Source: Bacillota bacterium (lineage in GTDB: Bacteria; Bacillota; UBA4882; UBA10575). From it: a DNA stretch of 36,398 nt. The notes under the pieces were generated by a model that was not told where the DNA came from, ran no database searches, and saw nothing but the letters and a program-made list of their open reading frames with translations. Positions 16,215 to 26,733 of this stretch are shown here, piece by piece (the stretch's first letter is position 1; every line of letters starts with the position of its first letter). The DNA is taken from contig DUNX01000017.1 in NCBI GenBank assembly GCA_012839115.1, positions 1 to 36,398 of the forward strand. Reading direction: 5' to 3'. The position numbers and the translations under genes are program-made.

Positions 16215-16500
16215 AGTCTCGTTGCTCGTTGCTCGTCGCTCGTCGCTCGGTTGTTAGTTAACATTTGAGCGGTCTCGCGTTTAAATTCGAAGCTCGTTGC
16301 TCGTTGCTCGTTGCTCGTCGCTATTCTCGGTACTCGTTGCTCGTTGCTCGTTGTTCGGTTGTCAGTTGGCATATTAAGTGTCTCATCGCCAGACTCGAAG
16401 CTCGTTGCTGGTTGCTGGTCCGCTATTCTCGGTAATCGTTGCTCGTTGCTCGTTGCTCGTTGCTCGTTGCTCGTTGCTTGTTGCTCGTCGCTCTTCACTC
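16215..16500. repeat. Heptamer tandem-repeat array with 108-bp higher-order unit
   Basis: The region is built from the 7-mer TCGTTGC (plus strand) and variants TCGTCGC, TGGTTGC and TTGTTGC, with seven perfect consecutive copies at 16436-16484. Non-repetitive spacers recur too: a segment starting CGGTTGT at 16248 recurs at 16356, and the motif CGCTATTCTCGGTA appears at 16319 and again at 16421, so a ~108-bp unit is duplicated. The period is divisible by 3 and a minus-strand frame stays open through it, but there is no sign of a real gene. Confidence 0.95.
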
Positions 16501-23980: not shown

Positions 23981-24772
23981 TCAACGGGCCAGCCAGCGCC
24001 AGGTTAGTCCCGCCAACAAAGACAAGAAGGAGATCCCGGCGGTTAATGTGTCCGTGCTTTTCCATCCCAGTTCGGCATAGGAAGTACGAAACGCTCCAGG
24101 CACAAACCCCCTGGCTTCCATAGCCTGGGCCAGCTCCCCAGAACGTCGTAAAGCGGATAAAAAGAGCGGAATAACCATGGCCAGCAACCCCTTTATTCTC
24201 CGGGGCCACTGTTGACGACGGAAGTCTACCCCCCGGGCGCGTTGGGCCAAGGTAATTTCCCCGGCCTCTTCCAGCAAAAGCGGGAAAAAATGTAAGGCCA
24301 TCCCAATAACCAAAGCAATTTCCTCCCCCGGCAACCATCGGCGTAACGGGCGGAGAAAGGCAGCAATCCCTCTAACCATGAGGATAGGCTCGGTAGTCCC
24401 CATCAACCAGACCCCGCCCAGGAGTAGGCTGGAAAGACGGAAAAAATAGGCGCACGCAAGGTGCAACCCGTAATCGGTAAGAGAAAACCCGGCCATCCTG
24501 AGCAAAGGGTTGCCTTCCCTGGTTAAAACCAAATTGAGCAGGAAAATTAAACCAAGGAGCCAACGGAAGGAATATAGTGCTCTTAAGACCCAAATGCCGG
24601 GGAGATGGGAGGCAAGGAACAACCCCAGGCACACGGTGAAGACCATTACCTGCCACCATAAATTCTGTTCCAAAAGTACCATGACCACCAAGACCGTCAG
24701 GACAAAAACCTTCACCCTGGGGTCCCGCCGGTGCCAAAAAGACGCCACCGGATAATATCTGCCAAAAACCAT
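23981..24772 (-). CDS. ecfT: Energy-coupling factor transporter transmembrane protein EcfT
   Basis: Membrane scaffold of the shared ECF vitamin transporter module; couples ATP hydrolysis by EcfA1/EcfA2 to substrate-binding S components. About five to six hydrophobic helices. The two Ala-Arg-Gly motifs of the coupling helices are present as LAQRARGVDF and QAMEARGFVPG. ATG at 24772 gives 263 residues; a GTG at 24826 would add 18 residues. It is separated from ecfA2 by 342 nt, unusual for this operon. Confidence 0.93.
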   Translation of the reverse strand: MVFGRYYPVASFWHRRDPRVKVFVLTVLVVMVLLEQNLWWQVMVFTVCLGLFLASHLPGIWVLRALYSFRWLLGLIFLLNLVLTREGNPLLRMAGFSLTDYGLHLACAYFFRLSSLLLGGVWLMGTTEPILMVRGIAAFLRPLRRWLPGEEIALVIGMALHFFPLLLEEAGEITLAQRARGVDFRRQQWPRRIKGLLAMVIPLFLSALRRSGELAQAMEARGFVPGAFRTSYAELGWKSTDTLTAGISFLSLLAGLTWRWLAR

Positions 24773-25114
24773 CAGCCCACCCCACTTAGATATGTACGAT
24801 CTACCCGGCAAATCCGTTAAAACCACTATCGTAACGCCTTTTCCCGCAACGGCCTACTCACCTTTTCCGTTTACCCGTTGCGGGGGGCAACCGCAGGAAA
24901 TGGAGGCTGCTTACATTTAGCGTGCACAGCGCGGCACAATGGGAAGCGCAGACGCGAGAAATCCAAGGCGGGAGGGAGGACGGACCGCAGACAATTCGCA
25001 CGTTCCCACGCGCGTTCGTATGTCGAGGACCAGCCGGACCGACCAACGCCGAAATTCGACGCGGATCCGCTTCCCGGCCTCCATTTCCTACAATCCCCAA
25101 AGCCCAATCACACC
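24773..25114. other. 342-nt gene-free, structured gap between ecfA2 and ecfT
   Basis: No supported gene; the short open frames on both strands lack ribosome-binding sites and family resemblance. Nearest ecfT is an inverted repeat CCCGCAACGG (24843-24852 / 24875-24884, 22-nt spacer). Then comes a 195-bp segment bounded by 13-bp inverted repeats. No transcription terminator is visible, so the gap is probably transcribed as part of the ecf mRNA. Confidence 0.7.
24895..25089. repeat. 195-bp segment bounded by 13-bp perfect inverted repeats
   Basis: AGGAAATGGAGGC (24895-24907) is matched by its exact complement at 25077-25089. A second nested pair, GGGAAGCG (24941-24948 / 25068-25075), sits immediately inside the right arm, and a palindrome GCGGATCCGC (25061-25070) overlaps it. 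No flanking target-site duplication is evident. It could be a remnant of a small non-autonomous mobile element or a structured RNA inside the ecf transcript. Confidence 0.55.
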
Positions 25115-25927
25115 TTACCCCAACAACTTCCTAAACTCCTCCAAAGCCCCTTCCAGACTCTCCTGCCCCGGCTCCACCGGCGCCCCCTTCTCCGCCAGCC
25201 GGTAGAGAAGCCGCAGGGCAGCCGGCAGCTCCAGCCCCAACTTCTCCAAGAGCCCCGGGTCCTCCCCCAACCGTCCCCAGCTCGTATCCGCCGCCAGCCT
25301 CCCCCGGTCCAACACCAGCACCCGCCGGGTCAGCGGGAAGACAAAATCCGCCTCGTGTGCGGTGATGACCAGCGTTATCCCGGTCTCCTGGGCCAACTCC
25401 CGCAGGATCCGGGACAAATCCCGTTTCCCCTGGGCATCAACCCCGGCTACTGGCTCATCCAGGAGCAAAAACCGTGGCCGCAGCGAGAGCACAGAAGCCA
25501 ACGCCAACCGCCGCTGCTCCCCGCCGGAAAGCGCAAAAGGCGGCCATGCCCACTTCTCCTCCGGCAGGCCGACGGCAGAGAGGGCCCACCGCACCCGCTC
25601 CTCCACCGCACCGGCGCCGAGAGCGAGATTCTCCGGGCCAAAGGCCGCCTCCTCCCAGGCCGTAGCCGCAAAAAACCCCCGTTGCGGTTCTTGCAACGCC
25701 AAGGCCACCCGGCCCCCCTCCGGGACCAGGGCCTGCCCCCTTCCCGGCACGAGCAGCCCGGCCATCACCCGCAACAACGTGGATTTCCCGGCGCCACTGG
25801 GTCCGAGGAGGGCAATCTGTTCATTTTCCCCAACCAAAAGATTAACCCCGGCCAAAGCCCTGGTCTGCCAGGCGGTCCCGGGATAATAATCAACGCTTAC
25901 ATCAGATAATCTTATTTCCAAAGCCAT
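25115..25927 (-). CDS. ecfA2: Energy-coupling factor ATPase EcfA2
   Basis: 270-residue ABC ATPase. Walker A GPSGAGKST (42-50), Q-loop Q79 (ALQEPQRG), signature LSGGEQ (133-138), Walker B FLLLDEP (153-159), and H-loop H191 (VITAHEAD) are all intact. The C-terminal part after the ABC core is typical of EcfA. ATG at 25927 overlaps the end of ecfA1 by 16 nt. It pairs with EcfA1 on EcfT. Confidence 0.95.
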   Translation of the reverse strand: MALEIRLSDVSVDYYPGTAWQTRALAGVNLLVGENEQIALLGPSGAGKSTLLRVMAGLLVPGRGQALVPEGGRVALALQEPQRGFFAATAWEEAAFGPENLALGAGAVEERVRWALSAVGLPEEKWAWPPFALSGGEQRRLALASVLSLRPRFLLLDEPVAGVDAQGKRDLSRILRELAQETGITLVITAHEADFVFPLTRRVLVLDRGRLAADTSWGRLGEDPGLLEKLGLELPAALRLLYRLAEKGAPVEPGQESLEGALEEFRKLLG

Positions 25928-26733
25928 GATACGAATTCCTCTTCACCGGCCACCGGCGGAGGCGACTGGGAGAGCCCGGCCGCGATCTCATAAACCGGCG
26001 GCAATTCGATCCCCCACCGGTTGGCCTTTTCAACCTCACCCCAAAATTCACCGGGCCTGCCTTGCCAGGCCGTTTTCCCGGCTTCCAGAACCAGCAAATG
26101 ATCGGCCCCGGCCACTTCGGCAAAGGCAGACGTAAACCAAAGCAGAGCCGTTCCCTCTCTCCGGAGCTCCTGCAGGAAACCACAGACCTTCTTTTTGCTT
26201 CCGGAGTCCAACATGCTCAAGGGCTCGTCCAACAGCAGGACACGAGGCCGGAGTACCCAGAGGGCGGCCAGGGAGAGCCGGCGTTTTTCACCCCCGGACA
26301 ACCGGTGCGGCGGCATTCCGGCCAGATGACCCAGGTCGAACCGGTCCAGAGTATCCCGGACCCGCCGTCGGATTTCCGCCGGAGGTACGCCCAGGTTTTC
26401 CAGGGCGAAGGCAGTTTCTGCGGTGACGGTTTCCGCCACAAACTGGTTCTCCGGGTTCTGAAAAACAAGCCCCACGGCCTGCCGAATCCTTCGCCGGTTC
26501 TCCTCCTGCCGGGTGGAGCATCCTTCTACCAAGACCTCACCGGAGTCCGGCAGGTACAAACCACAACATAAACGGGCCAGAGTTGATTTACCCGACCCGT
26601 TGGCGCCCAAAATTCCACAAAAATCTCCTGCTTCTATCTGCAGGTTAATCTCTTCCAGCCTGAACTCTGCAGAGCCGGGCCGTTGCCGCGCGTGCGCGTA
26701 AGAAACGTCCTGCAAGGCAAGGAGCGCGGGCAC
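25912..26733 (-). CDS. ecfA1: Energy-coupling factor ATPase EcfA1 with altered H-loop
   Basis: 273-residue ABC ATPase. Walker A GANGSGKST (43-51), Q-loop Q92 (FQNPENQF), signature LSGGEK (145-150) and Walker B VLLLDE (165-170) are present. At the switch position the usual TH is WFTSAF, so serine 202 replaces the H-loop histidine. GTG at 26733 lies 3 nt after the rplQ stop. Together with EcfA2 this suggests one degenerate ATP site. Confidence 0.93.
   Translation of the reverse strand: MPALLALQDVSYAHARQRPGSAEFRLEEINLQIEAGDFCGILGANGSGKSTLARLCCGLYLPDSGEVLVEGCSTRQEENRRRIRQAVGLVFQNPENQFVAETVTAETAFALENLGVPPAEIRRRVRDTLDRFDLGHLAGMPPHRLSGGEKRRLSLAALWVLRPRVLLLDEPLSMLDSGSKKKVCGFLQELRREGTALLWFTSAFAEVAGADHLLVLEAGKTAWQGRPGEFWGEVEKANRWGIELPPVYEIAAGLSQSPPPVAGEEEFVSWLWK

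Follow-up and report, generated by a model that had tools for sequence, protein, structure and literature searches.

A probable MITE-like element with a covarying hairpin core between ecfA2 and ecfT of a Bacillota bacterium

Results

The ecfA2-ecfT intergenic region

The window, by which we mean the whole stretch of DNA analyzed (36,398 nucleotides of contig DUNX01000017.1, from a Bacillota bacterium), contains an ecf operon in which ecfA1 (25912-26733) overlaps ecfA2, and in which 342 nt separate the ecfA2 stop codon from the likely ATG of ecfT. The gene coordinates bear out both the overlap and the distance given in an earlier note, which had been made from the sequence alone.

The gap contains exact 13-bp inverted repeats (AGGAAATGGAGGC and GCCTCCATTTCCT), the palindrome GCGGATCCGC at 25061-25070 and a 10-bp inverted pair, all found where the earlier note had placed them. 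The nested 8-bp pair that it described is present and perfect, and is longer than claimed: it is included in a pair of 16 nt, 81% complementary, at 24941-24956 and 25060-25075. Only mechanical ORFs were found in the segment. The window copy showed no promoter- or terminator-like site, and neither a sharp boundary nor a target duplication was recognizable there; the missing duplication had been remarked on before.

Of 2000 dinucleotide shuffles of the 342-bp gap, 7 contained a perfect inverted repeat at least 13 bp long. The z-scores of single-sequence folding were modest (-2.8 for the plus strand, -1.8 for the minus strand), so that the real support for a structure is comparative. Scores of only about -2 to -3 would speak for chance palindromes in a long spacer; this explanation, already at odds with the shuffles, is hardly credible and was refuted by the recurrence of core copies described below.

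At the edge of the window, a partial tmRNA gene was identified at positions 1-241 of the minus strand, where the window edge cuts it (Rfam RF00023, 81 bits).

Table 1. Coordinates of the proposed element, its parts and the adjoining genes
Feature	Positions	Strand	Remarks
ecfA2	25115..25927	-	upstream gene of the interrupted pair
ecfT	23981..24772	-	downstream gene; ATG at 24772 inferred from relatives
whole putative mobile element, about 300 bp	24785..25097, ends approximate (+/-15 nt)		additional DNA when compared with congener G002, whose gap lacks the element; span agrees with how other copies are laid out
first hairpin	24843..24884 (arms 24843-24852 / 24875-24884)	+	corresponds in the alignment to a hairpin that other copies have to the left of their long hairpin
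long hairpin, terminal arms perfect over 13 bp	24895..25089 (arms 24895-24907 / 25077-25089)	+	
conserved structured core	24941..25074	+	full-length match to both covariance models (R1 108.1 bits, R2 94.5 bits), the window copy being one of the seeds in both
core 5' strand, CAAGGCGGGAGGGAGGACGGACCGCAG...	24964..24995	+	stretch first found repeated in the genome
core 3' strand, CGAGGACCAGCCGGACCGACCAACG	25018..25051	+	
apical extension	24996..25017	+	exceeds that of most copies by about 16 nt; a gap in the other sequences (alignments A1 and A3)

Copies in the same genome and limits of the element

The earlier note had proposed that other copies of the segment be sought in the genome. BLAST matches to the 5' strand of the core were obtained at four other places, on contigs C52, C35, C26 and C88, and a pattern search agreed. 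The matches on C35 and C26 lie at the ends of their contigs, where a repeat that interrupts assembly would be expected, and could be the two ends of one copy.

The copies in this genome are organized like the window copy, with a first hairpin, outer arms that vary and a core that is conserved. The hairpin CCCGGCGC...GCGCCGGG, to the left of the long hairpin, was found in copies from the same bacterial family and class. The 10-bp repeat nearer to ecfT, formerly described as separate, aligns with this first hairpin and is therefore part of the same element. The 195-bp limits that had been proposed are thus too narrow, since the element also takes in this hairpin and some flank.

The core measures about 119 positions in the family models. 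The sequence of the outer arms varies between lineages and showed no conservation, which is unusual for ends recognized by a transposase. In one copy (locus L006), a GC-rich insertion of about 300 nt is nested in the apical loop, at about 800-1100.

Distribution of the family

A covariance model built from eight copies (R1) matched 10 of the 16 genomes of the bacterial family and 22 of the 299 genomes of the phylum, nearly all at full length. The second covariance model, R2, was made from 104 copies, and some of the genomes later searched were among its seeds; at E<=1e-6 it gave matches in 58 of 398 genomes, about 15% of those sampled, and in 45 of 266 genera of the phylum.

In named genomes, a pattern scan yielded at least 118 stretches, those listed being mostly from Gallionellaceae, other Nitrosomonadales and Deltaproteobacteria. 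Among the pattern matches listed, a few came from Desulfovibrionaceae, Omnitrophota and Patescibacteria; many of the named-genome records are metagenome-assembled genomes, so single odd taxa have to be read with care. R1 gave 56 matches in the 80 listed loci at E<=0.01, a few of them at sites missed by the pattern.

None of the Rfam 15 covariance models matched the element. Searches of plasmid and phage collections with G141, Sideroxydans-type and Omnitrophota queries gave no match. With one further query, the only plasmid match was an apical one (22-30%), in alphaproteobacterial plasmids. Two exact patterns found 2 and 20 stretches in 2.9 million virus contigs, and carriage by phages therefore looks rare.

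The alphaproteobacterial plasmids (loci L286 and L289, both at 2400-2660) carry the apical motif GGAGCGTAC..GTACGTGAGCACCGG, and most of the core is absent from them. The motif is placed between etfB and etfA in Aminobacter, and in Rhizobium its copy adjoins a similar gene end; the R2 match to L289 was weak. A tree of the elements was not used, as it was poorly resolved and grouped the window copy implausibly.

Covariation of the core and the strand that folds

Among the 104 copies, 34 of the 36 base pairs of the core change on both sides across phyla with the pairing kept (92.6% of cells pair). In the phylum set, 32 of 36 covary. These counts come from alignments fitted to the model structure, a bias that favours the structure, although the margin is large. 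The covariation score of the 104 copies was 0.745, as against 0.178 when shuffled (0 of 500 shuffles) and at most 0.127 with slid partners. In the window copy itself the core differs from its relatives by compensatory changes, G-C to C-G twice and T-A to C-G once. Further copies and covariation, whose joint absence had been named beforehand as counting against the proposal, were both found.

For 29 copies less than 65% identical, the model-fitted alignment contained 54 G.T and 8 A.C pairs. Because such an alignment favours G.T, the count was repeated using a strand-symmetric alignment of the hairpins: among isolated mismatches, G.A outnumbered T.C by 62 to 4 and G.T outnumbered A.C by 30 to 13. 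The counts indicate that the core strand bears purine-rich internal loops, of the type seen in folded single strands. On this comparative evidence the core strand is probably the strand that folds, and in the window it is antisense to the ecf genes.

Mobility of the family

The complete, single-contig genome G141 harbours about 15 copies or derivatives that share their ends, with a unit of 155 bp. In the 6-bp flanks of these ends 80 of 90 positions match, compared with a mean of 57 and a maximum of 73 in shuffled flanks (0 of 10,000 shuffles); TATATG/TATATG and TAGTAG/TAGTAG are examples of the duplications. This 6-bp evidence belongs to the G141 subfamily, target duplications being not discernible in copies from the window's own bacterial family. 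At several Nitrosomonadales copies 4-bp duplications were noted, the flanks being judged by eye.

Five copies in G009 were compared with the orthologous sites of the sister species G004. Three of these sites are empty, with gaps of 21, 20 and 84 bp where G009 has 416, 440 and 438; one of them is apparently the adk-secY gap of a ribosomal-protein operon. Of the other two, one is a 329-bp gap with no evident element and one holds a half-element.

Judged from these sequence comparisons, namely the G141 duplications and the empty orthologous sites, the family is mobile. The proposal of a non-autonomous mobile element in the earlier note is in keeping with both results and with the other copies in the genome. 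No convincing autonomous partner with the same ends was found in the complete genome G141 or in the fetched loci.

The strand-specific imperfect hairpin, with its variable arm sequence and purine-rich mismatches, also recalls a single-stranded DNA hairpin recognized by its structure, like the ends of IS200/IS605 elements or integron attC sites. Elements of these types insert without target duplication, and 6-bp duplications were found in the G141 subfamily, apparently 4-bp ones (by eye) in another lineage; such duplications are not expected of the IS200/IS605 or attC mechanisms. We consider this explanation improbable.

A 49-bp derivative at about 1470-1550 of locus L138 retains little beyond the two tips, and a 6-bp duplication still flanks it. 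At loci L027, L034 and L293 half-elements were observed that break off within the core.

History of the ecfA2-ecfT gap

When the locus was compared across the bacterial family, the ecfA2-ecfT gap measured 24-48 nt in six relatives from other genera. In another five the alignment to ecfA2 is cut short; the 150-198 nt left before ecfT read as the remainder of that gene and show nothing of an element. The congener G002 has a gap of about 66 nt and no element, and the congener G001 has the left half only.

This distribution marks the element as a lineage-specific insertion. The simplest history is that it was inserted in the common ancestor of the window species and G001 and that G001 later lost the right half. 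The half-elements that break off within the core suggest that loss of one half is a recurrent route of decay.

The same distribution makes control of ecfT by the element unlikely. A cis-acting RNA switch or attenuator would fit a folding sequence in an operon gap, and the earlier note had considered an RNA controlling ecfT translation. The element is, however, missing or broken in congeners, the gaps are short in other genera, and the strand that appears to fold is antisense to the ecf genes. It has no Rfam match and no terminator-like site, and the same family adjoins dozens of unrelated genes. We regard such a role as very improbable.

Genomic placement

For copies between co-directional genes in the Bacillota set, the core strand was antisense to both neighbours in 48 cases and sense in 8; in the named, mostly proteobacterial set the numbers were 16 and 11, with no significant bias. 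Both counts rest on mechanical ORF calls and include related copies that are not independent of each other. GC skew indicated that replication and transcription are confounded as causes of the orientation bias.

Several copies were found in apparent rRNA operon spacers or beside tRNA genes (loci L077, L111, L082, L074 and L071), and in those inspected the core strand is the transcribed strand. At 1363-1786 of locus L091, a copy lies inside the span of a T-box leader match.

These placements could be read as those of a functional structured RNA, a small RNA or an mRNA 3' element with a cellular role, for which mobility would be secondary. A strand-specific covarying fold kept across phyla, a position just 3' of genes, the orientation bias in Bacillota and the copies just listed from rRNA spacers, a tRNA neighbourhood and a T-box leader would all agree with this. 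On the other hand the distribution is patchy, with no detectable copy in 6 of the 16 family genomes, the window copy lacks a promoter-like site, and half-elements persist. The bias itself mostly places the core strand antisense to its neighbours and did not recur significantly in the other set. Overall, a primarily cellular function seems unlikely, although less so than the single-stranded DNA hairpin.

Discussion

Taken together, the window segment is best explained as a degraded, vertically inherited, short non-coding MITE-like element that entered between ecfA2 and ecfT in the line shared by the window species and one congener (probability about 0.83). The window copy is apparently old and immobile. 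A transposase encoded elsewhere would act on the terminal repeats, and the core strand may fold as single-stranded RNA or DNA, and selection would keep this fold. The ecf operon is probably read through the element, whose effect on ecfT would be small at most.

The family resembles MITEs in being short, non-coding and intergenic, with terminal inverted repeats, a stable hairpin and, in one subfamily, target duplications (PMC10969869). Of the features by which MITEs are defined, small size without coding capacity, terminal repeats, dispersed copies and empty sites were all found, and the 6-bp duplication in G141 only. It differs from them in that the internal core is conserved across phyla and the arms covary, and in that no parent insertion sequence was found in G141 or the fetched loci.

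The bcr1-bcr3 repeats of the Bacillus cereus group are MITE-like, carry a TTTAT motif, are reported to be confined to that group and are often transcribed, often as parts of UTRs and operon gaps (PMC6542083, PMC3446304); compared by description alone, they are similar to the window family in size and behaviour. Chunjie, a 235-bp MITE of Geobacter uraniireducens as described in PMC10969869, was likewise inserted in an operon, a likeness that is again one of description alone. RIME, mentioned in PMC2245857 as intergenic repeats of Rhizobium, share the intergenic position when compared by description alone, and some rhizobial plasmids carry a similar apical motif. REP sequences are also extragenic palindromes, but measure 20-40 bp (PMC3733652), whereas the core alone has about 119 positions here and target duplications occur in the best-resolved subfamily; membership in REP was ruled out by this difference in length.

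Small mobile repeats are usually regarded as conserved at their ends. In the window family the inside is conserved and the ends drift, against this usual view. One tentative and rather doubtful explanation is a widespread transposition module whose conserved part is a strand-specific folded RNA or single-stranded DNA core and not the end sequence, the same core being moved by a different transposase in each lineage, as the different tips and the 6-bp and apparent 4-bp duplications might indicate.

No earlier description of the family was found in the open-licence literature searched. A strand-specific, compensated hairpin family present in several phyla thus has neither an Rfam entry nor a description in that literature, and the question is raised whether the fold serves the movement of the element or the host. 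Long spacers in operons may be insertions of this kind and not regulatory elements.

Positions 16217-16493 of the window are taken up by degenerate tandem repeats of 7 bp (GCTCGTT/CTCGTCG), some of them arranged in 108-bp units, and GCTCGT-like strings are also found on the flanks of many element copies from related genomes.
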